Source: Nitrospirota bacterium (GTDB lineage Bacteria > Nitrospirota > Thermodesulfovibrionia > Thermodesulfovibrionales > Magnetobacteriaceae). Taken from it: a stretch of DNA of 64,000 nt. Below the pieces are notes generated by a model. It worked only from the letters and a program-made list of their open reading frames with translations. It ran no database searches and had not been told where the DNA came from. The stretch is taken from positions 1 to 64,000 of the forward strand of contig JADFYO010000009.1 of NCBI GenBank assembly GCA_015233015.1, read 5' to 3'. Both the position numbers and the translations under genes were made by a program. Below are positions 5,884-55,524 of the stretch, in pieces (position 1 is the first letter of the stretch; every line of letters begins with the position of its first letter).

Positions 5884-7038
5884 ATGATTTGTTATAGATG
5901 TAAAAACAACATCCCGAAAGACGCGGTAAAATGCCCTGTATGCGGCGTAAAGGCTATGCCATTCGTTGGGGCCAAGACATGTCCGTATTGCGGTACGGTC
6001 AATCCGGTCAGCGCGCGGTATTGTATAAACGACGGCTATTCGTTCGCTGAAACTGAAAGAGAGGATTTACCAAGCGAATTTGACGACGAACAAGAGGAGG
6101 AAACGGCAACGGCAGCGGCTAAACCAAGAAAGAAAAAACACGGTTTGTTAAGGTTTTTGATGTGGATATTTTTAACTATCGCTTGTCTTGTGGCGTCTGC
6201 CGTTGTGGGATACCATATATTCAAGCCTAAGAACTATCTGCTTGAACAACAAGCCGTTGAGGCCCTCACAAACGCCGGTCTTAAAGACGTTTCGGTCAGG
6301 GTAGATCTCAGTAAAACCGCCAGATTAACCGGCACGGTAAAAAACACCGATGAAAAGGCGTCTGCCGAAGGCATCGTCAAAAAGATCCCCAAGATAGTCC
6401 GCGTAGAAAATAACATAATCGTCTCGCAGCTCGTTCCAAAACCGGAGGAACTTGAGAGAACAATCAATACATCATTGAGTTCTCAGGGTTTTCCGGGTGT
6501 TGTCGTAAGCGTCAACACTGCCCTTGCAGCGTCCATAATTGGAACGGTACCCAGCGAATATGACAGGAATAAAGTGCTTACCATAGTAAAGGCAAACAGG
6601 GACGTGAAAGACATCAGAGATAACCTGCATGTAGATGCGTCTCTGGCCCAGCAGGCAACCGCTGTTCAACCACCACCATCACAGGCAGCGCCAGTTCCTT
6701 CGCCGGCGGCTCCCACTCCTGCCCCAACGCCTGAGCCTCTGCCTTTGCCCGAGTCAGCTCCTGCTCCAACGCCGGAGCCGCCAGTACATCAGCCTGCACC
6801 TCAGCCTGCGCCTGCGCCGCTGTCTCACCCTGATACAGGCGCCCTCGAAGCGGCTGTCAATAATGGTCTCAGAAACGCCGGCCTTACAAAAGTTACTGCC
6901 GAGGTAGGCGAAAACCTCGATATTACACTAAAGGGTACGGTATCTAACTCAAGAGATAAATCTAAGGCATTCGACATAGTGAAACATACCAAGGGCGTTA
7001 TGAAAATAAAGGATAGGATTTTTGTCGTTGAACCCTAA
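5884..7038 (+). CDS. Zinc-ribbon, TM and BON-domain protein with Pro/Ala-rich linker
   Basis: CYRCKNNIPKDAVKCPVCG / CPYCGTVNPVSARYC zinc ribbons, TM segment, repeated BON-like segments. Confidence 0.7.
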   Translation: MICYRCKNNIPKDAVKCPVCGVKAMPFVGAKTCPYCGTVNPVSARYCINDGYSFAETEREDLPSEFDDEQEEETATAAAKPRKKKHGLLRFLMWIFLTIACLVASAVVGYHIFKPKNYLLEQQAVEALTNAGLKDVSVRVDLSKTARLTGTVKNTDEKASAEGIVKKIPKIVRVENNIIVSQLVPKPEELERTINTSLSSQGFPGVVVSVNTALAASIIGTVPSEYDRNKVLTIVKANRDVKDIRDNLHVDASLAQQATAVQPPPSQAAPVPSPAAPTPAPTPEPLPLPESAPAPTPEPPVHQPAPQPAPAPLSHPDTGALEAAVNNGLRNAGLTKVTAEVGENLDITLKGTVSNSRDKSKAFDIVKHTKGVMKIKDRIFVVEP

Positions 7039-7054: not shown

Positions 7055-7510
7055 ATGAAGAGTTTTTTCAGGCTATTGATTATAACAGTGTCAGCGGTTG
7101 TTATGTTGGCAGGATGTGCCCCACCTAAAAATGTTGTTCAGCCTACACAGGAGGAAATCGAGCCGCCACTCAGTAACGAGTCAATAAAAGTTGACGCCTA
7201 CACGCTGAGACCTCAGACGGCCTTTCCGGGGTCAACCATAGAAATATCGGTACAATATACCCTGCGCTTACCGAAAAATAAGAGCCTGGTAGAAGTTACT
7301 GAAATCAGAACTTTAGTTATGGGCACTGAACCTGTTGAATTATCACGCAAAAAGATTATTCGTTCAGAAGGCTCTCACAAATCCACGATCAAATTCAGCC
7401 TGCCGATGGATATAGAAAAGGGCGACTACACACTTAGGACAGTTATTTCTACACCAGCAGAGACAAAGACAATAGAAGACACGCTGACTATTAAAAAGAA
7501 GGGCAGATGA
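7055..7510 (+). CDS. Predicted lipoprotein of unknown function
   Basis: Signal with lipobox VMLAGCAPP. Confidence 0.7.
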   Translation: MKSFFRLLIITVSAVVMLAGCAPPKNVVQPTQEEIEPPLSNESIKVDAYTLRPQTAFPGSTIEISVQYTLRLPKNKSLVEVTEIRTLVMGTEPVELSRKKIIRSEGSHKSTIKFSLPMDIEKGDYTLRTVISTPAETKTIEDTLTIKKKGR

Positions 7511-7530
7511 TGGAAAGGACAGCAGCTTAA

Positions 7531-7634
7531 GGATCAAAGACGAAGGGGGATAATCCCCCTTCACCCCTGTTCTCGCACACGTTTTATCTATTGAGTTTGG
7601 GCTGCCGCTCGTTGGCGGCTTCGGTACTCCGGCT
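7531..7634 (+). repeat. 104-bp repeat copy R1 (two hairpins)
   Basis: ~94% identical by hand alignment to reverse complement of 9305-9408; contains GAAGGGGGATAATCCCCCTTC near-palindrome. Confidence 0.9.
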
Positions 7635-7716
7635 ATAGGCTATTATGATATATCCCCCCTTTACCTTATTTGAACTATTATTATATTATACTAAGCCTTG
7701 AACGTACTATTGAGAT

Positions 7717-9279
7717 ATGCTGCGGGATATGCAGCGCGTGGATAAGCCTCTGGTTATTGGACATGGGCCTCTGAGTTTGCAGGATGTGGAACATGCCGCA
7801 ATGGGCAGGACTACCGTTTCTCTCGATGACACGCACGATTTCACCGCGCGTATTGACAGATCCGCTGAATATCTCGGTCTGCGGCTCTCTATGGGAGACC
7901 TTATATATGGCGTAACCAGCGGCTACGGCGCCGACTGGAAAACTACCGTCCCACATGAACTTACGCAGCGCCTTCCCATTAATCTCGTCAACTTTCACGG
8001 CTGCGCCACAGGAGAATTCCTTCGTATTGAAGAGGTTCGAGCCGCCATGATTATCACTATTAACAGCCTCAGCCGCGGCTACTCCGGCGTAAGAAAGGCA
8101 ATCCTTGACCAGCTTGCCGCACTCATCAATAACAACATCACCCCGTGTATACCATGCGAAGGCTCAGTCGGGGCAAGCGGCGACCTTACGCCTCTATCAT
8201 ATATCGCCGCCACGCTCATGGGTCAGCGCGAGGTGTGGTTCGGAGACACAGTAATGCCCGCAGATGAGGCACTTACAGAAGCCGGCATTATACCCCTCAT
8301 CCTGCACCCCAAAGAAGGCCTTGCGATTATGAACTCCACAGCGGTAATGACAGGGATTGCCGTGTTGGCATACTCACGCGCGTACTATATCGCCCGCCTT
8401 GCCGCTGCAATTACGGCAATCGCCATTGACGCACTTGGCGCTAACCACTCTCACATGGACAGCCGTATATTTGACCTGAAGCCGCACAAAGGCTCAGCGG
8501 CCGCGGCCGCATGGATTCGCACTCACCTGCAGTTTGTCAACGGCAGGGAAAATGGTTCGGCGCGCTGCCTCCAGGACAGATATTCACTGCGCTGCGCCCC
8601 GCATGTTATTGGCGCCCTGCTTGACGGCCTCTCATGGATTGGCAATATACTTGAGACAGAACTTAACTCTGTAAACGATAACCCTCTGATTTTCCCCGAA
8701 GAGGGCGCTATTCTAAACGGCGGGAATTTCTACGGAGGACATGTCGCACTTGCTATGGATATGCTTAAGACCGCCACTGCATCGATAGCAGACCTCAGCG
8801 ACAGACAGCTTATGCTCCTTCTCAATTCAAACAGCGACTACGGCCTGCCCGATAACCTCTGCGCCCCGGAACTGCCGGACGGCCAGGCTCATCACGGTTT
8901 TAAGGCCATGCAGATTACCGCCTCCGCCCTAACCGCCGAGGCCCTTCGCAACACCATGCCCGCCTCGTCGTTTTCGCGCTCTACTGAAAGCCATAATCAG
9001 GACAAGGTAAGCATGGGGACTATCGCCGCGCGCGACGCGATGAGGATAATCGACCTGACCGAGAAAACCCTTGCCATTGAGCTGCTTTCCGCTCTTCAGG
9101 CAGTTGACCTCAGAGGCATTGAGAAATGCACCACAGCCAGCCGCGCCATTCACACATTTGTCCGCCGATACATACCTATGGTTGTAGAAGACAGACGAAT
9201 GGACACGGACATCATAAGGGTACTACACTGGATACGCCTGCGGGAACTTCCACTGCAAGATATTGACATGTCTCTCTGA
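7717..9279 (+). CDS. MIO-dependent aromatic amino acid ammonia-lyase (HAL/PAL/TAL superfamily)
   Basis: GSVGASGDLTPLSYIA (MIO-forming ASG), ELNSVNDNPLIF, STESHNQDKVSMG; selectivity loop NLVNFHGC is not the HAL-type SH. Confidence 0.88.
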   Translation: MLRDMQRVDKPLVIGHGPLSLQDVEHAAMGRTTVSLDDTHDFTARIDRSAEYLGLRLSMGDLIYGVTSGYGADWKTTVPHELTQRLPINLVNFHGCATGEFLRIEEVRAAMIITINSLSRGYSGVRKAILDQLAALINNNITPCIPCEGSVGASGDLTPLSYIAATLMGQREVWFGDTVMPADEALTEAGIIPLILHPKEGLAIMNSTAVMTGIAVLAYSRAYYIARLAAAITAIAIDALGANHSHMDSRIFDLKPHKGSAAAAAWIRTHLQFVNGRENGSARCLQDRYSLRCAPHVIGALLDGLSWIGNILETELNSVNDNPLIFPEEGAILNGGNFYGGHVALAMDMLKTATASIADLSDRQLMLLLNSNSDYGLPDNLCAPELPDGQAHHGFKAMQITASALTAEALRNTMPASSFSRSTESHNQDKVSMGTIAARDAMRIIDLTEKTLAIELLSALQAVDLRGIEKCTTASRAIHTFVRRYIPMVVEDRRMDTDIIRVLHWIRLRELPLQDIDMSL

Positions 9280-19112: not shown

Positions 19113-19356
19113 ACTTGCTTGACAGGGCAAACGCATTAGAAATTGCCTCCCTTATTTTTGTCATTCCGGCCACATTTTGTCATTCCGGCTTGTCTGGAAT
19201 CTGTCCTTATGCCTCAGAATATGCACAATCATCATAAAACTCCCACTAAAGGGAAGATTCTGGACAAGCCGGAATGACTGAAATGGACAAACCGGAAAGA
19301 TTGCATAGGTATCTTCTGCTTTATTTTTTTAAATGCGTTGCCCCTGACTTGCTTGA
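19113..19356. mobile_element. MITE-like element (19123-19346) with 10-bp target duplication ACTTGCTTGA
   Basis: TIR-like CAGGGCAAACGCATT ... AATGCGTTGCCCCTG; ACTTGCTTGA at 19113-19122 and 19347-19356; second copy at 28672-28897. Confidence 0.88.
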
Positions 19357-19440: not shown

Positions 19441-19713
19441 ATGAAAAAAATGTTCCTGCTTTTTATTGCGATGACATTTATTTTTGTTTCTTACGTCAGC
19501 GCAGAAGATGCTACACTCAATAAGGCGTCTGTTCAGGGGAAATACAGCAATCTTATTCAACTGATGCCCTGCTCCAAGGACAAAAAGACCTACGGAGAAT
19601 TCAATGACTATGGTAAATGGTCAGGAGGCGCATGGTGTGGTCAGAAAGGTCTGTCTGGTTACTGGGTATATGTTGCTCCTAATTGGTATGTATGGGGTGA
19701 TAAGAACCAGTAA
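19441..19713 (+). CDS. Small secreted protein of unknown function
   Basis: AAGGAGGTG Shine-Dalgarno, signal peptide MKKMFLLFIAMTFIFVSYVSAE, mature ~68 aa Trp/Tyr/Gly-rich with two Cys. Confidence 0.7.
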   Translation: MKKMFLLFIAMTFIFVSYVSAEDATLNKASVQGKYSNLIQLMPCSKDKKTYGEFNDYGKWSGGAWCGQKGLSGYWVYVAPNWYVWGDKNQ

Positions 19714-19811
19714 ACGAGCTGTTTCATTCGCGCTTTAAGCCGTTTCTAAAGAGTTGTCATTTCATTAGGTTCTCCTCCATGGCGCTCTGAAAAGCGGTTG
19801 TTTCTGCATTA

Positions 19812-19852
19812 GGCCTCGGTCTTGCTGGATTCATCCGGCACGACCGGGAGCC
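19812..19852. other. Strong intergenic hairpin
   Basis: CGGTC-TT-GCTGGAT-TC-ATCCGGC-AC-GACCG pairing read directly. Confidence 0.5.
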
Positions 19853-20010
19853 GACATGCCGGGGTATTCTGTTTTCTTGTATTATTCAGTCAAAGTCCCT
19901 TGCCCTGTTAGCTTAACAATCTCAGAACATCTAAGCAGAAATAAAATGATCATAAATAAAATCTATTGACAAACGACAATTCAACAGAGTACCATAGCCA
20001 AGCTGTACCA

Positions 20011-20110
20011 TATAACGACATGCAATGACAAATCATGACAAGTGATGACAGGTAAAGACAACTAATGACAGGTGATAACAGACAATGACAGGTAGTGACA
20101 AATGAGGACA
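20011..20110 (+). repeat. Ten in-phase 10-bp direct repeats, consensus RRTRATGACA
   Basis: tataacgaca/tgcaatgaca/aatcatgaca/agtgatgaca/ggtaaagaca/actaatgaca/ggtgataaca/gacaatgaca/ggtagtgaca/aatgaggaca. Confidence 0.9.
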
Positions 20111-20823: not shown

Positions 20824-22863
20824 ATGATTACCCCCATTGAATTATCGATTTTCTCTGCCATTGCGTTTGCCATACCTATACTTTTTGTTATAGTGATTGG
20901 CAATAGCAGACGCCTGTTGATATGCATATCTTTTTCTGTATCGGCGCTGGCCTCTTTAATCAATGTTGCAGCGGGGATTATGGCGGTTTCCAATGGCGAG
21001 GCGCAACATCTGATACTTCCGTTGGGGCTGCCCGCCCTTCCCTTTCATTTGAGACTTGACGAGCTATCCGGATTTTTTCTCGTTGTCGTCGGATTGCTTT
21101 CATTTTTTGTATCGATATACTCAATAGGCTATGTCAGCGGGCTTGCCACAGGCAAACCCGTAAAGAGGCTGATTGTGTTTTATAACATCTTTATTGCCGC
21201 GATGTTTATGGTGTGCCTTGCCGATGATGCTCTGTTTTTTCTGGTTGCGTGGGAGGTTATGGCAGCGGCATCCTACTTTTTGGTCATGTTTGAGGACGAA
21301 CACAGCGAAAACAGGAGGGCGGCCTATCTTTACATGGTAATGGCTCACATCGGAGCTGTTTTAATACTTCTGTCCTTTGGAGTACTGGCGGGAGTTACGA
21401 CGGGCTTCGAGAGTTTTACCGGTTATACTTTTGATGCGATGAGGGAGGCTAACATTCCTCCCAAGTGGGCAGCTGTGGCTTTTTTGCTTTCTTTTTGCGG
21501 GTTTGCGGCCAAGGCCGGCGTTATACCATTTCATGTATGGCTTCCAGAGGCACATCCGGTTGCGCCGTCAAATGTATCGGCCCTCATGAGCGGGGTAATG
21601 CTTAAAACGGCCATATACGGGATAATACGAATAACCTTCGATATAATCAGAGTGTTTCCATGGTGGTGGGGGACTATGGTACTTGTCTTAGGTCTGATTT
21701 CTGCCGTTATGGGTGTGCTTTACGCGCTGATGCAGCATGACTTAAAAAAACTCCTTGCATATCATTCGGTTGAGAATATTGGAATAATTCTTATAGGAAT
21801 AGGGTTGTCTATGATATTTACCTCTTTTCGCCTTCCTCTCATGGCAGCGCTCGCCCTCCTGGCAGGTTTGTATCATACTATTAATCACGCTATGTTTAAG
21901 GGTCTGCTTTTTATGGGAGCTGGGGCAGTCCTTCATGCCACGCATGAAAGAAATATGGATGAAATGGGTGGTCTGATACACCAGATGCCCTGGACGTCCG
22001 CCTTTTTCCTCGTTGGCTGCATATCTATTTCAGCCCTGCCGCCATTTAATGGATTTGTCTCCGAGTGGTTGACTTTCCAGGCGTTTCTATTGTCTCCGTC
22101 TCTGCCTATCCCGATGATGAAACTTCTCATACCTTTGGGGGCAGCCGTCCTTGCATTAACCGGCGCTTTGGCAGCAGCCTGTTTTGTAAAGGTCTTTGGC
22201 GTGATATTTTTGGGGAACTGGCGGGGGCATCACCACCACGCGGCAGTTGAGGCCGGATGGTCTATGCGCATAGGGATGGCGCTTGCATCGCTTACCTGTC
22301 TTTGTCTTGGAGTTCTGCCGGCCATTGTCCTGAACTGGATGGACGTCATTTCTGAAAAACTTGCGAACACAAAGCTCATCAGTTCATCCGGGGTATATGG
22401 ATGGATGTGGCTTACGCCTGTTGACCCTGAAAGGGCTTCCTACTCTGGCCCGCTTGTCCTTATCGGAATTGTCGCCGTATGTACGATAACTTATTTACTG
22501 CTCCATGTAAAGCCTGGAATGATAAGCAGGGTGCCGGTCTGGGATTGTGGGTTTCAGAAACTTACCTCCAGAATGCAGTATAACGCGGTATCTTTTTCTA
22601 TGCCTTTTCGCAGGATATTTGGGTATCTGTTTGATATAAAAGAACAGATACGGCTGTCCCCGCAACAGAGGCACACGGCCTTTCCTGTGAAATCCAATTA
22701 CTACCTTCGCATAAGAGACCGTTTCTGGGGTTGGATTTACAGACCCGTTATCGATAGGGTCGTTTTACTTTCCCGAAAGGCAGGTTTGCTTCAGCATGGG
22801 CGGATACATGTGTACCTTATATATTCATTTCTGACAATAATCGTTCTGCTGGCCTTGTTATGA
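20824..22863 (+). CDS. Hydrogenase-4 component B-like (proton-pumping antiporter subunit)
   Basis: NuoL/MrpD-type membrane protein, AVAFLLSFCGFAAKAGVIPFHVWLPEAHPVAPSNVSALMSG. Confidence 0.9.
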   Translation: MITPIELSIFSAIAFAIPILFVIVIGNSRRLLICISFSVSALASLINVAAGIMAVSNGEAQHLILPLGLPALPFHLRLDELSGFFLVVVGLLSFFVSIYSIGYVSGLATGKPVKRLIVFYNIFIAAMFMVCLADDALFFLVAWEVMAAASYFLVMFEDEHSENRRAAYLYMVMAHIGAVLILLSFGVLAGVTTGFESFTGYTFDAMREANIPPKWAAVAFLLSFCGFAAKAGVIPFHVWLPEAHPVAPSNVSALMSGVMLKTAIYGIIRITFDIIRVFPWWWGTMVLVLGLISAVMGVLYALMQHDLKKLLAYHSVENIGIILIGIGLSMIFTSFRLPLMAALALLAGLYHTINHAMFKGLLFMGAGAVLHATHERNMDEMGGLIHQMPWTSAFFLVGCISISALPPFNGFVSEWLTFQAFLLSPSLPIPMMKLLIPLGAAVLALTGALAAACFVKVFGVIFLGNWRGHHHHAAVEAGWSMRIGMALASLTCLCLGVLPAIVLNWMDVISEKLANTKLISSSGVYGWMWLTPVDPERASYSGPLVLIGIVAVCTITYLLLHVKPGMISRVPVWDCGFQKLTSRMQYNAVSFSMPFRRIFGYLFDIKEQIRLSPQQRHTAFPVKSNYYLRIRDRFWGWIYRPVIDRVVLLSRKAGLLQHGRIHVYLIYSFLTIIVLLALL

Positions 22864-23810
22864 CAAAACCACTGCATTTAATTTTAATAGAGATTTTACA
22901 GGTCGTTATAGTCATTGCGGCAGCCCCTGCCTTTCTGGGATGGGTGGATATGCTGAAGTGCTGGTTACAGGGGAGGACTTCCGCCGGAATAATGCAGCCA
23001 TACAGGAATATTGCAAAGTTATTCGTCAAAGATGTGGTGCTTGCAGACAATGCCTCATGGATATTTCGCATTACCCCGTATTTGGTGTTCGGGACTGCCG
23101 TAGTTGTTGGAAGCGTTATCCCTATAATTTCGACAAACCTGTTTTTGGCCCCCAGTGCCGATATTATTGTGGTAATAGCGATTTTTGCAACAGCCAGATT
23201 TTTCATGGCATTGGCCGGCATGGACATAGGGACGGCGTTTGGCGGCATGGGCGCCAGCCGTGAGATGATGATAGCCTCTCTGACGGAGCCGGCCATACTT
23301 ATGGCTATTTTTACTGTGTCTCTGGCCGGCAGGTCAACATCTCTGCTTCATATAGTACAGTCATTTTCCAATGGGGCGTTAGTGCTGAGACCATCGATTG
23401 TGTTTGCAGGCATAGCGTTTGTTCTTGTGGTTATTGCCGAGGCAGGCAGGGTTCCGGTTGATAATCCGTCAACGCATCTTGAGTTGACGATGGTACACGA
23501 GGCTATGATTCTGGAGTATTCCGGCAGACACCTTGCGCTTATAGAGTGGGGATCGATGATAAGGTTTTTTCTTTTTGTTACACTTGGCATTGCATGCTTC
23601 CTGCCATGGGGAATAGCTTCCACGGATGACGCGGGGAGTATCGCCGCATCTGTGTTTTTTATGGTTATAAAAGCCGCTGTTATTGGGGTTGTTGTAGTGC
23701 TGATAGAGACCGGGCTTGCAAAGATGAGATTATTCCGGTTAACCGAATTCCTGGGGGCTGCTTTTTTATTGTCAACCCTTGGTGTGATTGCCTTTTTTAT
23801 TCTGGAGTGA
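22860..23810 (+). CDS. HyfC/NuoH-like membrane subunit
   Basis: AEAGRVPVDNPSTHLELTMVHEAMILEYSG. Confidence 0.9.
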   Translation: MTKPLHLILIEILQVVIVIAAAPAFLGWVDMLKCWLQGRTSAGIMQPYRNIAKLFVKDVVLADNASWIFRITPYLVFGTAVVVGSVIPIISTNLFLAPSADIIVVIAIFATARFFMALAGMDIGTAFGGMGASREMMIASLTEPAILMAIFTVSLAGRSTSLLHIVQSFSNGALVLRPSIVFAGIAFVLVVIAEAGRVPVDNPSTHLELTMVHEAMILEYSGRHLALIEWGSMIRFFLFVTLGIACFLPWGIASTDDAGSIAASVFFMVIKAAVIGVVVVLIETGLAKMRLFRLTEFLGAAFLLSTLGVIAFFILE

Positions 23811-23811
23811 T

Positions 23812-24477
23812 ATGAACTTACAATTACTGGCACAAATAAATAGTTTCCTGGCAGCCCTGGTGTTGCTGACAGCCTTTGCGATGTTGTCACAAAGAAAAAT
23901 AAATAGTTTGGTTACTTTATTTGCGTGGCAGGGTCTGTTTCTTTCAATCAACACAGCGGTAGTGGGCTTTGTCGCTGCTAAGCACCACCTGTATATATCG
24001 TCGCTATTAACATTGTCAATAAAGGTAATTCTCCTGCCATATATATTACATGTCCTTATAGTGCGCCTTAAGATTAGAAAAGAGATGGAAACAATAATGA
24101 ATATCCCTACGACGATGCTGATAGGGATTGCCCTTGTCATTTTTTCCTATCATCTTACCGCCCCTGTCAGGGAGATGTCCACTCTTATAACACGCTCCAC
24201 GCTTGCGGTTGCCCTTGCAACCGTTATGATTGGTTTACTTATGATGATTACGAGAAAACATGCCGTTACCCAGATAATTGGATTTCTTGCAATGGAAAAT
24301 GGACTTTTTTTTGCCGCTACCAGCGCGACATACGGTATGCCTCTTGTTGTGGAGCTGGGCGTTGCCCTCGATGTCCTGATTGCCGCATTCATATTCGGAA
24401 TATTTTTCTTCCATATAAGCACCACCTTCGACAGCCTTAGTGTGGAGCAGATGGAAAGCCTGAGGGAGGACAATTGA
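23812..24477 (+). CDS. HyfE-like membrane subunit
   Basis: Position in operon, NuoK-like GFLAMENGLFF motif. Confidence 0.82.
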   Translation: MNLQLLAQINSFLAALVLLTAFAMLSQRKINSLVTLFAWQGLFLSINTAVVGFVAAKHHLYISSLLTLSIKVILLPYILHVLIVRLKIRKEMETIMNIPTTMLIGIALVIFSYHLTAPVREMSTLITRSTLAVALATVMIGLLMMITRKHAVTQIIGFLAMENGLFFAATSATYGMPLVVELGVALDVLIAAFIFGIFFFHISTTFDSLSVEQMESLREDN

Positions 24478-24496: not shown

Positions 24497-25945
24497 ATGA
24501 TACTCCTTGTTTTGATTATAACGCCCTTTGTGGCGGCTATGATATTGGCCTTTATTGGCGACAGGAAGGTTGCTCCCGTCATAAATATCTTTAGTTCATT
24601 TTTGACATTTCTGGCCGGAATTGCCCTTGCCGTCGAGGTATTCAGACATGGTCAGTTTGTAGCGGGCGGGAAATTCTTCTTTGTTGACGCCTTTAATGTG
24701 TATCTGTCTGTGCTTACCGCTTTTGTCTCTATGACCACTGCCGTTTTCAGCCGCAGGTATATGCAAAGAGAGAAAGACCATGGCAAGGTTGGGCATACGC
24801 GTATGCGTTTTTATCACGCAATGTTTCAGATGTTTATATTTGCCATGCTCCTGTGTCTTCTGACCAACAATATAGGGGTGTTGTGGATTGCGATGGAACT
24901 TGCAACGTTATCCACAGTGCTTCTTGTCTCGCTCTACCGCACACCCAACGCTATCGAGGCCGCGTGGAAGTATTTTATACTCTGCGGCGTTGGAATTGCT
25001 CAGGCGCTTTTTGGCACCGTGTTACTATACTTTGCCGCCGAGAAGGTCATAGGAGAGGGTGGTGAGGCGCTCCTTTGGACAAATCTTATCGAGGTAAGCG
25101 GCAGCCTCGAGCCAACAGTTCTTTCCCTTGCCTTTGTCTTTCTGGTTGTGGGATATGGTACAAAAGTCGGCCTCGTTCCTTTGCACAATTGGCTGCCTGA
25201 CGCGCATAGCGAGGGGCCAACGCCAATTTCCGCGGTGTTGTCCGGGCTTTTGTTAAATATTGCCCTTTATGCCCTTGTCAGGTGTAAGGTACTTGTCGAT
25301 GGCTCAACTCATACCCATTATGCCGGAAACATTATGATGGGCTTTGGGATTATCTCTATTTTGGTTGCCTCATTTTCCATTCTAAGGCAAAAAGATATTA
25401 AACGCATGTTTTCATATTCGTCTATCGAGCATATGGGCATAGCGACGTTTGCCTTTGGCCTTGGCGGCTCTATAGCCACATTTGGAGCACTTTTACATAT
25501 GCTCATGCACAGCATTACAAAGTCTTCCATATTCTTTACAGTTGGGCACGTCTGTCAAATGAACCAGACACAGGAAATCTCGAGGATAAAGGGATTATTC
25601 AAGGGGGACCCGTTTACCGGTTGGAGCCTGATGCTGGGTGCTATGGCAATTGCCGGAATGCCGCCATTTGGTATCTTCACCAGTGAATTCCTGATACTGA
25701 CAGCTACCATAAAAGACGTTCCGCTGTTGACACCTCTTATACTTATCGGACTGGCAGTTGCGTTTGCGGGGCTTCTCAGGAAGGTGCAATATATGGTATC
25801 AGGCGATATTCCCTCGTATTTCAAACAGTTGAAGACTGCCCGCACACCGGTTATACTTCACATGGCTCTGGTGCTTGCCCTGGCCTTTTATATGCCTGCT
25901 TTTCTTTATAAATGGTTTCAGGCAGCGGTGGAGTTGTTAAAATGA
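24497..25945 (+). CDS. HyfF-like proton antiporter subunit
   Basis: VGYGTKVGLVPLHNWLPDAHSEGPTPISAVLSG. Confidence 0.9.
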   Translation: MILLVLIITPFVAAMILAFIGDRKVAPVINIFSSFLTFLAGIALAVEVFRHGQFVAGGKFFFVDAFNVYLSVLTAFVSMTTAVFSRRYMQREKDHGKVGHTRMRFYHAMFQMFIFAMLLCLLTNNIGVLWIAMELATLSTVLLVSLYRTPNAIEAAWKYFILCGVGIAQALFGTVLLYFAAEKVIGEGGEALLWTNLIEVSGSLEPTVLSLAFVFLVVGYGTKVGLVPLHNWLPDAHSEGPTPISAVLSGLLLNIALYALVRCKVLVDGSTHTHYAGNIMMGFGIISILVASFSILRQKDIKRMFSYSSIEHMGIATFAFGLGGSIATFGALLHMLMHSITKSSIFFTVGHVCQMNQTQEISRIKGLFKGDPFTGWSLMLGAMAIAGMPPFGIFTSEFLILTATIKDVPLLTPLILIGLAVAFAGLLRKVQYMVSGDIPSYFKQLKTARTPVILHMALVLALAFYMPAFLYKWFQAAVELLK

Positions 25946-27504
25946 ACGGATTAGCGAACGCCCTCATGGCCTCGTTTGGCAAGGATGTTGTGGCCGATGA
26001 AAACGCAACTCCCGCTACATTTACTGTGCCGGCGGAGAGATTTGCAGATGCGGCCAATATATTAAGGGAATCATACGCGTTTCTCTGTGCCGAGTGGGCT
26101 GCCGACGATACAAACTCAGGCAGGGGTTACAGTGTTTACGCCTGCTATAGGGCGGGCAGCGAATACCTGATAGTAAGGGCTGAATTGTCTCGGGACAATC
26201 CGGAGTTTCCAAGCCTTGTCAAACACTTTGTACCTGCCTATAGATTTGAACGCCAGATCAGGAGTCTGATGGGAGTTATCCCGAGCGGGCATCCAGACAG
26301 CAGACCCTGGATTAAATTTGAGGACTGGCCGGAGGATGCCTGGCCGCTGAGAAAATCCTTTGACGCCGCCACAAAGATGCCGCGTCTGGATGGCCAGTAC
26401 GCATGGCTTAGGGCTGAAGGGGAAGGCGTGTATGAGATTCCGGTTGGCCCGGTACATGCCGGTATAATTGAACCCGGGCACTTCAGATTTCAGGCGGTTG
26501 GCGAGACCATAATAAATCTTGAAGAGCGCCTCGGTTACGTCCATAAGGGGATAGAAAAGAGGTTTGAATCAATGACATGGGAGACAGCGGTTAAATTAGC
26601 CGGGCGCGTATCGGGCGATACAACGGTAGCTCACTCGATGGCCTACTGTATGGCGCTTGAGTCGATGACGCACAGCGATGTACCAGTGAGAGCCAAATGG
26701 CTCAGGGCACTTTTCCTTGAAAGGGAACGTATTGCCAATCACATTGGGGATATTGGGGCTATTTGCAATGACGCGGCCTTTGCCTTTATGATATATCAGT
26801 GCTCCAGACTTAAAGAAGTTATGATTGCCAATAACCTTAAACTCTTTGGACACCGGTTTATGATGGACAGGGTTATACCAGGTGGTGTGACAGTCGATAT
26901 AGATGCCGCAGCCAAACAGGAAATTCTGACTGAGCTGGATTATCTGAGCGAGCAATTCGACGTGATAGTTCGAATTTATGAGGAAAGCTCTTCACTCGAG
27001 GACAGGGTGCGCAATACGGGCATCCTCACATCGGAGTTGGCAAGAGAGCTGTGCACGGTAGGAATAGTTGCCCGTGCCAGCGGGTTAAATGTGGATTGCA
27101 GGGTTCATAATCCATTTCCTCCTTATGATTCAATTGGGATAGTGTCACCGGTGCTTACCGCAGGGGATGTTCATGCAAGGGTATGGGTGAGGGTAGAGGA
27201 AATCAGGGACTCTATACGTCTCATCAGGCGCATACTTGGACAGATACCTCATAGCCCCATAGCCGCCAGATGCAATACCCCGTTACCTGAAACTACAGGG
27301 TTTGCGGCAGTGGAGGGATGGCGCGGTGAGATAATATACTGGCTTGCGTGCGGTCAGAAGGGTGAGATAAACAGGTGTATGGTCAGGGACCCTTCCAGTG
27401 TAAACTGGTTAGCGCTCGAGCAGGCGATAAAGGGCAACATTGTCCCTGACTTCCCGCTTTGCAACAAGAGTTTTAATCAGTCATATTCGGGACACGACCT
27501 ATGA
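25942..27504 (+). CDS. HyfG/EhrL-like large subunit (NuoC-NuoD fusion) lacking NiFe-ligand cysteines
   Basis: L1 region AGRVSGDTTVAHS instead of RxCGxC; C-terminus SFNQSYSGHDL instead of SxDPCxxCxxR. Confidence 0.87.
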   Translation: MNGLANALMASFGKDVVADENATPATFTVPAERFADAANILRESYAFLCAEWAADDTNSGRGYSVYACYRAGSEYLIVRAELSRDNPEFPSLVKHFVPAYRFERQIRSLMGVIPSGHPDSRPWIKFEDWPEDAWPLRKSFDAATKMPRLDGQYAWLRAEGEGVYEIPVGPVHAGIIEPGHFRFQAVGETIINLEERLGYVHKGIEKRFESMTWETAVKLAGRVSGDTTVAHSMAYCMALESMTHSDVPVRAKWLRALFLERERIANHIGDIGAICNDAAFAFMIYQCSRLKEVMIANNLKLFGHRFMMDRVIPGGVTVDIDAAAKQEILTELDYLSEQFDVIVRIYEESSSLEDRVRNTGILTSELARELCTVGIVARASGLNVDCRVHNPFPPYDSIGIVSPVLTAGDVHARVWVRVEEIRDSIRLIRRILGQIPHSPIAARCNTPLPETTGFAAVEGWRGEIIYWLACGQKGEINRCMVRDPSSVNWLALEQAIKGNIVPDFPLCNKSFNQSYSGHDL

Positions 27505-28007
27505 TTAGAATCCTGCGGCAGATATTAAGGACAGGCATAGTTACGTGTAAGTGCCCTCAGATTGACGACCCCAATATCAGGGTAACAGGGATCAATTTAG
27601 AGAACTCTGTAAAAAAGCGTTTCAGAAGGAGTTTGTCGGTAAGGGAGGTGGACTCCGGTTCATGCAATGGCTGTGAACTTGAAATCCATGCCATTAATAA
27701 TCCTGTTTACGACTGTGAGAAACTTGGGATACACTTCACGGCCTCCCCCAGGTTTGCCGACGTCTTACTTGTTACCGGACCGGTAACTAAAAATATGGAA
27801 ATAGCCCTGAAGAGGACATATGATGCCGTCCCATCACCCAAAATAGTGATTGCCGTTGGGGACTGCGGGTGTAATGGCGGGATATTCGGAGAAAGTTATG
27901 CCTCATTAGGAGGCATTGACAAGGTTATTCCGGTAAACATCTATATCCCCGGGTGCCCTCCAACACCCACCGATATTCTGAATGGATTTTATAAGATATT
28001 TCTCTGA
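27501..28007 (+). CDS. HyfI/NuoB-like small subunit
   Basis: SCNGCE, GDCGCNGG and PGCPPTPTDIL [4Fe-4S] motifs intact. Confidence 0.9.
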   Translation: MIRILRQILRTGIVTCKCPQIDDPNIRVTGINLENSVKKRFRRSLSVREVDSGSCNGCELEIHAINNPVYDCEKLGIHFTASPRFADVLLVTGPVTKNMEIALKRTYDAVPSPKIVIAVGDCGCNGGIFGESYASLGGIDKVIPVNIYIPGCPPTPTDILNGFYKIFL

Positions 28008-28671: not shown

Positions 28672-28897
28672 CAGGGCAAACGCATTAGAAATTGCCTCCC
28701 TTATTTTTGTCATTCCGGTCCCATATTTTTGTCATTCCGGCTTGTCTGGAATCTGTCCTTATGCCTCAGAATATGCACAACCATCATGAAACTCCCACTA
28801 AAGGGAAGATTCCAGACAAGCCGGAATGACGGAAAGGGACAAGCCGGAATGATTGCATAGGTATCTTCTGCTTTATTTCTCAAATGCGTTCGCCCTG
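28672..28897. mobile_element. Second copy of the MITE-like element
   Basis: CAGGGCAAACGCATT...AATGCGTTCGCCCTG ends, near-identical interior to 19123-19346; flanks cgggggcaca/caagggcgca match 7/10. Confidence 0.88.
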
Positions 28898-53983: not shown

Positions 53984-55524
53984 GCCGACTTTAGTTTGTG
54001 TAATGAAGCGATGCTATCTTGAATGGATCTCACATGAGGATGATCTTCGCCATAAAAACGTCGGCTTATTTCCAACGCCTGTTCCAAATATGACAGCGCC
54101 TTTTTTGATTGACCTAATTTATTCCATGCAAAACCGATATTTTTGTATGTATTTGCAATATTTGGATGATTCTCTCCATAAACATTTAAAGCAATTTCCA
54201 GCGCCTTCTCATAATACTCCAGCGCCTTCCTTAACTCTCCAATGTTATACCATGTTAAACCTATATTGTTATATCTGCTTGCAACATTTGGATGATTCGC
54301 CCCATATACACTTAAATCGATTTTCAGTGCCTTCTCAAAATATTCCAGCGCCTTCTTTGATTCTCCTAAACTATACCACGCTGTGCCAATATTGTTATAC
54401 CCAATTGCAATATCTGGATGATTGTCTCCATATACATTTAAAGCAATAGTCAGCGCCTTCTCAAAATATTCCAGCGCCTTCTTTGATTGCCCTAATTTAT
54501 TCCATGCAAAACCTATATTGTTATAAGTACTTACAACGATTGGACCATTCTCTCCATATACATTAAAACTAACATTCAACACTTTCTCAAAATACTCCAG
54601 TGCCTTCTTTGATTCTCCTAAATAATTCCACATTGCCCCTATATTGTTATAAGTGCCTATAACACTTGGATGATTCTCTCCATATATATTTAAATCAATC
54701 TCAAGTGCTTTCTCAAAATATTCGATTGCCTTCTTTGATTCTCCAAAAGTACTCCACGCCAACCCTATATTGTTATAATCTTCTGCAACGGCTTGATGCT
54801 CTTCCCCGTATAAATCTATATCGATTTTAAGCGCTCTTTCATAATAATCCATTCCTTTATTCAGTCCTTCTTTAGTACCAATATGTATGTATAAACTTCC
54901 AAGTTCTCGGTACAACATTGACAGAAGTTTTCCTGCCAAATCAGGCGGCGGCACTTTTAGGTAATCCTCAATTTCGTTAATGCGGGCAAGCCGTCGTTCA
55001 AGTGGCATCGCTCGCATATAATCATATCCATTCTCTGTGAGAAGGTTAGACGGCGTCTTTTCTTTTTCAATTAGAAAAGACAATACGGCAGACCTCCATG
55101 ACCACATATCAGGGACGGTTGTCATGAATGAATATATGCCAAGTTCTGTCATCCACAGAAACAGCGATGCCTTGCAGATACGGGCTATGCCCTCTCTGTG
55201 ATAGTTAAACCCAAGCACCATCCTGTCACCTTCGTCCATTTTCAGCCACGTGTCAAGGTCAATGACGTGTATAACGTTATATTCTTTGCTTAATTGTGCA
55301 ATCTTTTCCTCGAAGTCATTAAAATCAGGAAATTTCTCCCGGCTTACTTCAAGAATAACTGCCTTCACGCCAAAGGCGCTGATCTCATCAATTATTTTCT
55401 TCCTGAACAGCGGGTCGTTAAACTCGGCTATGACAAGCTGAAAACCACCCCCGATCTCTAATAACCTCCCGACACGGCTCAGCTCCACCTTGTGGTCAGA
55501 CGTTAATTCATACGAACGAGCCAT
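53980..55524 (-). CDS. TPR protein with N-terminal degenerate-STAND-like domain
   Basis: N-terminal ...NYHREGIARICKASLFLWMTELGIYSFMTTVPDMWSWRSAVLSF; ~8 TPR units of 42 aa (YNNIGxAWxxLGESKKALEYFEKALxIxLNVYGENHP). Confidence 0.8.
   Translation of the reverse strand: MARSYELTSDHKVELSRVGRLLEIGGGFQLVIAEFNDPLFRKKIIDEISAFGVKAVILEVSREKFPDFNDFEEKIAQLSKEYNVIHVIDLDTWLKMDEGDRMVLGFNYHREGIARICKASLFLWMTELGIYSFMTTVPDMWSWRSAVLSFLIEKEKTPSNLLTENGYDYMRAMPLERRLARINEIEDYLKVPPPDLAGKLLSMLYRELGSLYIHIGTKEGLNKGMDYYERALKIDIDLYGEEHQAVAEDYNNIGLAWSTFGESKKAIEYFEKALEIDLNIYGENHPSVIGTYNNIGAMWNYLGESKKALEYFEKVLNVSFNVYGENGPIVVSTYNNIGFAWNKLGQSKKALEYFEKALTIALNVYGDNHPDIAIGYNNIGTAWYSLGESKKALEYFEKALKIDLSVYGANHPNVASRYNNIGLTWYNIGELRKALEYYEKALEIALNVYGENHPNIANTYKNIGFAWNKLGQSKKALSYLEQALEISRRFYGEDHPHVRSIQDSIASLHKLKSA

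Follow-up and report, generated by a model that had tools for sequence, protein, structure and literature searches.

A row of 10-bp direct repeats as candidate operator of an HTH-EIIA regulator gene and the Ehr operon that follows it

The regulator gene, the Ehr operon and the repeat array

The window (the whole 64,000-nucleotide stretch of Nitrospirota DNA analysed here) carries the gene of a protein that combines an HTH domain with an EIIA-like domain, followed on the same strand by an Ehr operon (Table 1). The amino-terminus of the protein matches HTH_17 (Pfam E 1.9e-13) and its carboxy-terminus PTS_EIIA_2; the excise domain TIGR01764 is also recognised, with 40.9 bits against a cut-off of 28.8. 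A GlnD-like gene lies upstream of the regulator gene on the other strand. The neighbours typed between about 12.5 and 30.2 kb are TamB, GlnD, the Ehr genes, ATP-synt_I and NrfD. No integrase or mobile element was found among them beside the regulator gene, and the homologous loci have Ehr genes.

An earlier reading, made from the letters of this DNA alone (the sequence-only reading), had described the operon as hyf-like. This holds for its HyfB/C/E/F/G/I-like subunits and is refined here to Ehr, as the HyfG-like large subunit features RVSGDTTVAH and DPSSVNW in place of the NiFe-binding CxxC motifs. A large subunit without the [NiFe] cysteine motifs is the mark of Ehr complexes in the available excerpts of PMC6349859 and PMC10284858; judged by its sequence, the operon thus codes for an Ehr complex and not for a hydrogenase. 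The excerpts of these papers and of PMC7894505 describe Ehr complexes with the same HyfB/C/E/F/G/I-like subunits, including a large subunit devoid of NiFe-binding cysteines. They give no regulator or operator, whereas a conserved one precedes the operon here.

Table 1. Features annotated at the regulator locus (window coordinates).
Feature	Coordinates	Strand	Basis or remark
-35 element TTGACA (putative promoter)	19966..19971	+	TTGACAA at the matching place in nearly all homologous loci
-10 element TACCAT (putative promoter, spacer 18)	19990..19995	+	TA[GC]CAT/TATAAT-like in homologues
Candidate operator array (ten 10-bp direct repeats)	20011..20110	+	local form nnnnnTGACA; family consensus WWTGGACAAW
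Last unit AATGAGGACA	20101..20110	+	GGACA core kept; doubles as putative Shine-Dalgarno sequence; same in relatives
HTH_17-EIIA regulator, 229 aa	20113..20802	+	Pfam, NCBIfam, models; wHTH residues 3-52, EIIA 87-215
Ehr NuoL/HyfB-like antiporter subunit	20824..22863	+	Pfam PF00361/PF00662
Ehr HyfC/NuoH-like subunit	22860..23810	+	Pfam PF00146
Ehr HyfE-like subunit	23788..24477	+	PF00420 E 9.5e-5, below cut-off; operon position
Ehr HyfF-like antiporter subunit	24497..25945	+	Pfam PF00361
Ehr HyfG-like large subunit without NiFe cysteines	25942..27504	+	Pfam and motif inspection
Ehr HyfI-like small subunit	27501..28007	+	Pfam PF01058

The predicted promoter (TTGACA-N18-TACCAT, 19966-19995) puts the transcription start near 20002, so that the array is probably part of the transcribed leader. 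The regulator gene starts at ATG 20113, which opens the conserved sequence MN[LM][TS]VKD. An in-frame GTG at 20095 was rejected as start; it lies inside the array and is not the conserved start. Just upstream of the promoter, an ORF for 90 aa (19441-19713) has a signal-peptide-like start and no Pfam match. An imperfect 30-bp inverted repeat (GTCATTCCGG...CCGGAATGAC, 19179-19278) is found between glnD and this small gene, and its GTCATTCCGG word recurs in a tandem pair at 28697-28740; both probably belong to a dispersed palindromic element. Weak microRNA matches at 19174-19284 and 19811-19852 score far below their gathering scores. A tandem repeat with a period of 126 bp and 5.5 copies (54086-54778) is probably a coding repeat.

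The array consists of ten 10-bp units, read directly from the letters of the window: TATAACGACA TGCAATGACA AATCATGACA AGTGATGACA GGTAAAGACA in its 5′ half and ACTAATGACA GGTGATAACA GACAATGACA GGTAGTGACA AATGAGGACA in its 3′ half, followed by the 2 bp CG and the initiation codon. GACA recurs in a single 10-bp phase in nine of the ten units, while rival spacings of 7-9 and 11-13 bp give at best 4 of 10 and the opposite strand 2. Four GACA words separated by N6 match three times, with overlap, in the array and never in 100 dinucleotide-preserving shuffles. Letters, register counts and shuffles thus bear out the ten consecutive units reported by the sequence-only reading. The TGACA core given there is the local form found in the window; the core conserved among relatives is GGACA, within the unit WWTGGACAAW. 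The Shine-Dalgarno role assigned to the last unit relies on its letters GAGGACA.

The bases between the cores resemble each other most at lags of two to three units, and Tandem Repeats Finder (TRF) fitted periods of 20 and 30 bp to the array. These two features suggest that the array probably grew by duplication of groups of units that later diverged around the kept core. Selection and slippage are compatible as sources of the array and do not exclude each other.

Conservation of the units and their restriction to one locus

Homologues of the regulator are present in the same family, in the same phylum and in other phyla. They were named in Nitrospirota, a Margulisbacteria bin, Acidobacteriota, Lentisphaerota/Kiritimatiellota, Deltaproteobacteria (mostly Desulfobulbales-like) and a Deferribacterales bin. 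Ehr genes follow the homologue in all listed loci except two (L047 and L084), in which the sequence ends shortly past the gene. Units phased by 10 bp precede the Nitrospirota, Desulfobulbales-like and Deferribacterales homologues. Upstream of 58 homologues the word [AG]GACA forms 66 pairs at a distance of exactly 10 bp, 28 at 20 bp and 15 at 30 bp; distances other than multiples of 10 are, with few exceptions, seen once or not at all, and shuffled sequences yield about 0.02 pairs per distance. Many of these loci come from metagenome bins and some of the 58 homologues are closely related, so that locus counts are not counts of independent events. Alignment of 187 units yields the consensus WWTGGACAAW, with a nearly invariant GACA and A/T-rich flanks. 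The copy number varies from 2 to 10 among relatives and is highest in the genus of the window.

Conservation of the 10-bp register in orthologous loci had been set beforehand as a test of the sequence-only reading, and the register is kept in the upstream regions compared. Its persistence across phyla together with the core, while the spacers vary, favours selected sites over chance or pure slippage, as had been proposed. A functionless tandem repeat produced by slippage would fit the higher-order periods of 20 and 30 bp and the range of copy numbers. It would hardly account for the same register and core at the same gene in several phyla with varying spacers, nor for the absence of units where the regulator has been lost (see below). 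We give this explanation a very low likelihood; at best, slippage might account for the additional copies seen in the genus of the window.

The association with the regulator gene is further illustrated by its co-loss. Four genomes (G015, G019, G003 and G004) have the Ehr operon and neither the regulator gene nor the units. The promoter is still recognisable in G019 (TTGACAAAC...TAGCAT), which no longer has any units. The regulator gene of G011 is broken, and its units appear partly degraded. No array was found upstream of other partial HTH or EIIA matches in the co-loss relatives and in the PVC genomes. At one locus (L017 of G006, about 1487-1505) the array is intact and the regulator frame is shifted near codon 5, owing to recent decay or to an assembly error.

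The arrangement of the units differs between groups. PVC relatives carry variant 10-bp unit pairs, either forward across the -35 box (TTGACATTTTTGGACA is an example) or reversed behind the -10 element (for instance TTGTCCTCAAATGTCA), or both. The occurrence of units at such positions in either orientation speaks for a signal at the DNA level. In Desulfobulbales-like genomes the start codon falls inside a unit (ATGGACAAA, ATGGATAAA) and the units enter the coding sequence. Last units that make poor Shine-Dalgarno sequences, such as TAGACAAATG, still keep GACA.

These variants bear on a reading of the array as an RNA element, in which the repeated GAGGACA would provide multiple Shine-Dalgarno or standby sites or a protein-binding leader. 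The probable location of the array in a 5′ leader and the Shine-Dalgarno letters of its last unit agree with such a role. It is hard to reconcile with the opposite-strand units of the PVC relatives, with the exact 10-bp register, with the GACA kept in TAGACAAATG-type last units and with units that extend into the coding sequence in Desulfobulbales-like genomes. Furthermore, the leader of the window folds no better than its shuffles (z +1.5) and no Rfam match was found at the array. An RNA element is accordingly rated as very improbable.

Some loci depart from the common pattern. Behind the -10 element of L030 and L031 the array is missing; these two loci have just one weak pair, in reversed orientation, at a more upstream position. 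Two Acidobacteriota loci (L059 and L060) have, upstream of 8001, a 10-bp repeat whose core is a different one (ATGTCCAAAG ATGCGACTCA ATGCGCATCA ATGAGATCTT), and the HTH of their regulator homologue differs. In L063, from an Acidobacteriota bin, two adjacent matches to the HTH-EIIA protein (7301-8621) precede the Ehr operon, before which no array is visible.

In 36 of 41 loci, adjacent units that each score at least 6 bits lie between -160 and +20 relative to the start of the regulator, and none was found elsewhere in the 547 kb scanned. As the matrix had been derived from the very sites counted, it is this zero that is informative. With a three-unit model (E <= 0.1), exactly one match, before the regulator gene, was obtained in 7 of 10 distant genomes and none in the other three. 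The regulator promoters again score best in the family genomes, where the remaining matches are chance-like. Most of the secondary matches inspected lie inside open frames and they have nothing in common. The same model scores the array of the window at chance level in its own genome, as a result of the drift of the local core to TGACA. No second site that would indicate a wider regulon was consistently found in 20 family genomes or in the 10 distant ones, a search whose sensitivity is limited by the 150 candidates scored per genome and by the poor scores of the local units; a wider regulon was therefore set aside. Two palindromic TGACA/TGTCA sequences about 1 kb apart on contig C44 of G000 (6389-6423 and 7384-7418; L006 and L007) were rejected as a different motif.

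Relation of the HTH domain to BldC and the excisionases

Among winged-HTH proteins, BldC and the phage excisionases are studied examples of binding to series of direct repeats spaced by about one helix turn. Streptomyces BldC binds 5′-CAATTCGGACAATTCGGACA-3′ as head-to-tail multimers; it reads the minor groove of an A/T-rich stretch and, further on, a C-G pair through Arg30, with Lys26 near guanines (PMC5859096). In this crystal site, as in the unit described here, the GGACA core is preceded by an A/T stretch. It scores 9.0 bits with the 187-unit matrix, a value reached by 0.9% of its own shuffles, and the BldC site AATTCGGACA is nearly identical to the AWWWTGGACA of the units (PMC5859096). 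The AATT-N4-C layout of the BldC site is also found in the 187 units, whose A/T-rich positions lie five to eight bases before the invariant C.

The protein side agrees in part. The BldC contact residues K26, T27, R30 and wing R48 align with K17, T18, R21 and R38, which do not vary among the aligned homologues from Nitrospirota, PVC bacteria, Acidobacteriota and Desulfobulbales-like genomes. The residues of the head-to-tail interface of BldC (F21, W31 and L43) are substituted by L12, M22 and V33, which are hydrophobic, with no charge at position 43; the inter-monomer salt bridge Glu16-Arg22 is not kept (D7/N13). The model of the HTH domain (pLDDT 86) superposes on BldC 6amk at 1.4 A, with a TM score of 0.81 by target length, and this structure is among its top matches. 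6ama is matched as well; the Foldseek E-value for this 59-residue domain is weak, about 0.01. When BldC is left out of the HTH profile, it is recovered only at E 0.24, after RacA and Pukovnik Xis.

BldC covers two repeats at whiI and four at smeA-sffA, in either orientation, with one turn between monomers at smeA (PMC5859096). The system described here shares with BldC the MerR-like wHTH, direct repeats in variable number and sites in either orientation. It differs in that BldC has 68 residues, no effector domain and many targets, and in that its whiI crystal repeats are 9 bp apart (PMC5859096), while up to ten units are spaced here by exactly 10 bp; the HTH-EIIA protein would, unlike BldC, serve a single locus, and it carries a carboxy-terminal EIIA-like domain. 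Apl of phage 186 occupies as many as seven repeats, spaced by about one turn and lined up between promoters; it requires three adjacent repeats for a gel shift, bends the DNA and acts as a repressor of promoters (PMC7498355). A spacing of about one helical turn between direct repeats is common to Apl, lambda Xis, P2 Cox and RdfS, and Apl and other recombination directionality factors combine weak single sites with strong cooperativity (PMC7498355, PMC11963761). In contrast to the protein studied here, Apl and its kin serve phage or ICE excision with integrases and are not associated with an EIIA domain or a metabolic operon (PMC7498355, PMC11963761). These precedents, together with sequence and fold, favour the earlier suggestion that an excisionase-type HTH protein may polymerise along one face of the DNA.

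Binding of the array by a regulator other than the protein encoded behind it appears improbable: the units occur at the regulator gene only, are absent where this gene is lost, and have a core known to be read by a related wHTH (PMC5859096).

Proposed operator function and possible input to the EIIA-like domain

We propose, with a probability of about 0.82, that the HTH-EIIA protein binds cooperatively and head to tail to the array in front of its gene, and that the array would serve as operator for the repression of this gene and of the Ehr operon. The proposal draws on sequence comparison, the structural model and the analogy with BldC and Apl. One winged-HTH domain would read each 10-bp unit (an A/T-rich stretch, then GGACA) and each monomer would contact the next head to tail, all on the same face of the DNA. 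Through these contacts the number of adjacent units would be the main source of affinity, as reported for BldC and phage 186 Apl. The units span from just behind the -10 element to the ATG; the bound protein would thereby cover the promoter exit and the leader, repressing the regulator gene and the Ehr operon, presumably as one transcript. Negative autoregulation is probable, its sign being deduced only from the position of the units. Control of the regulator gene and of the downstream operon, as the sequence-only reading had suggested, is made more credible by the conserved neighbourhood and by the co-loss of units and regulator.

The same protein could act at the same operator as an activator, its filament bending the DNA and recruiting or remodelling RNA polymerase. 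BldC and MerR-type proteins distort promoter DNA (PMC5859096), and the units of PVC relatives overlap the -35 box. Activation is awkward for the window and most relatives, where units lie downstream of the -10 element and reach or pass the ATG; the promoter that persists in G019 without regulator and array also suggests that it is independent of both. We consider activation unlikely.

The EIIA domain matches the folds of 3urr and 1a6j. It shares this fold with PtsN (EIIA-Ntr) and PTS EIIA type 2, as well as a histidine at the phosphorylation position (His137) in the Nitrospirota homologues; the position is also occupied by histidine in those of PVC and Acidobacteriota. The PtsN equivalog score of the regulator is 49 bits, far below the cut-off of 138.7. 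Differences from PtsN and PTS EIIA type 2 are the fusion to a wHTH, the lack of EI-N and HPr in the genome and the loss of the histidine in Desulfobulbales-like homologues. Neither the EI amino-terminal domain (PF05524) nor HPr (PF00381) was found in the 99% complete genome, whereas the same searches detected both in 7 of 14 control genomes. The phospho-histidine is replaced by Cys or Ala in three aligned Desulfobulbales-like homologues (L064, L065 and L082) that keep the HTH and the array. PTS phosphorylation, put forward earlier as the input to the EIIA domain, is thus unlikely as a general input and was dropped for these two reasons. The EIIA-like domain would modulate the assembly in response to a signal other than classical PTS phosphorylation, and may sense this signal or bind a partner.

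We found no openly licensed paper on an HTH-EIIA fusion before Ehr or hyf genes. Here the direct-repeat logic of BldC and the excisionases is met in a chromosomal, metabolic setting, in several phyla and with an EIIA domain attached. The locus offers a lead to the regulation of Ehr complexes and calls PTS control into question in a genome that has no EI-N and HPr. The natural series of 2 to 10 sites makes the relation between site number, cooperativity and output directly testable. On a tentative and rather doubtful note, such proteins might form a widespread family of regulators, each devoted to one target. A PTS-independent EIIA domain would respond to electron flow or to the condition of the Ehr complex and thereby gate a BldC-like filament on the transcribed leader; the number of units (2 to 10) would have served in evolution to tune cooperativity, and recognition would drift together with the protein.

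Two peculiarities of the window are recorded here. Next to the contact residue K17 its protein has Gly16, a position taken by Glu or Asp in every aligned homologue. TGACA also prevails among the units of the window, and GGACA among those of the homologues. From the sequences compared, a joint drift of protein and site is possible.
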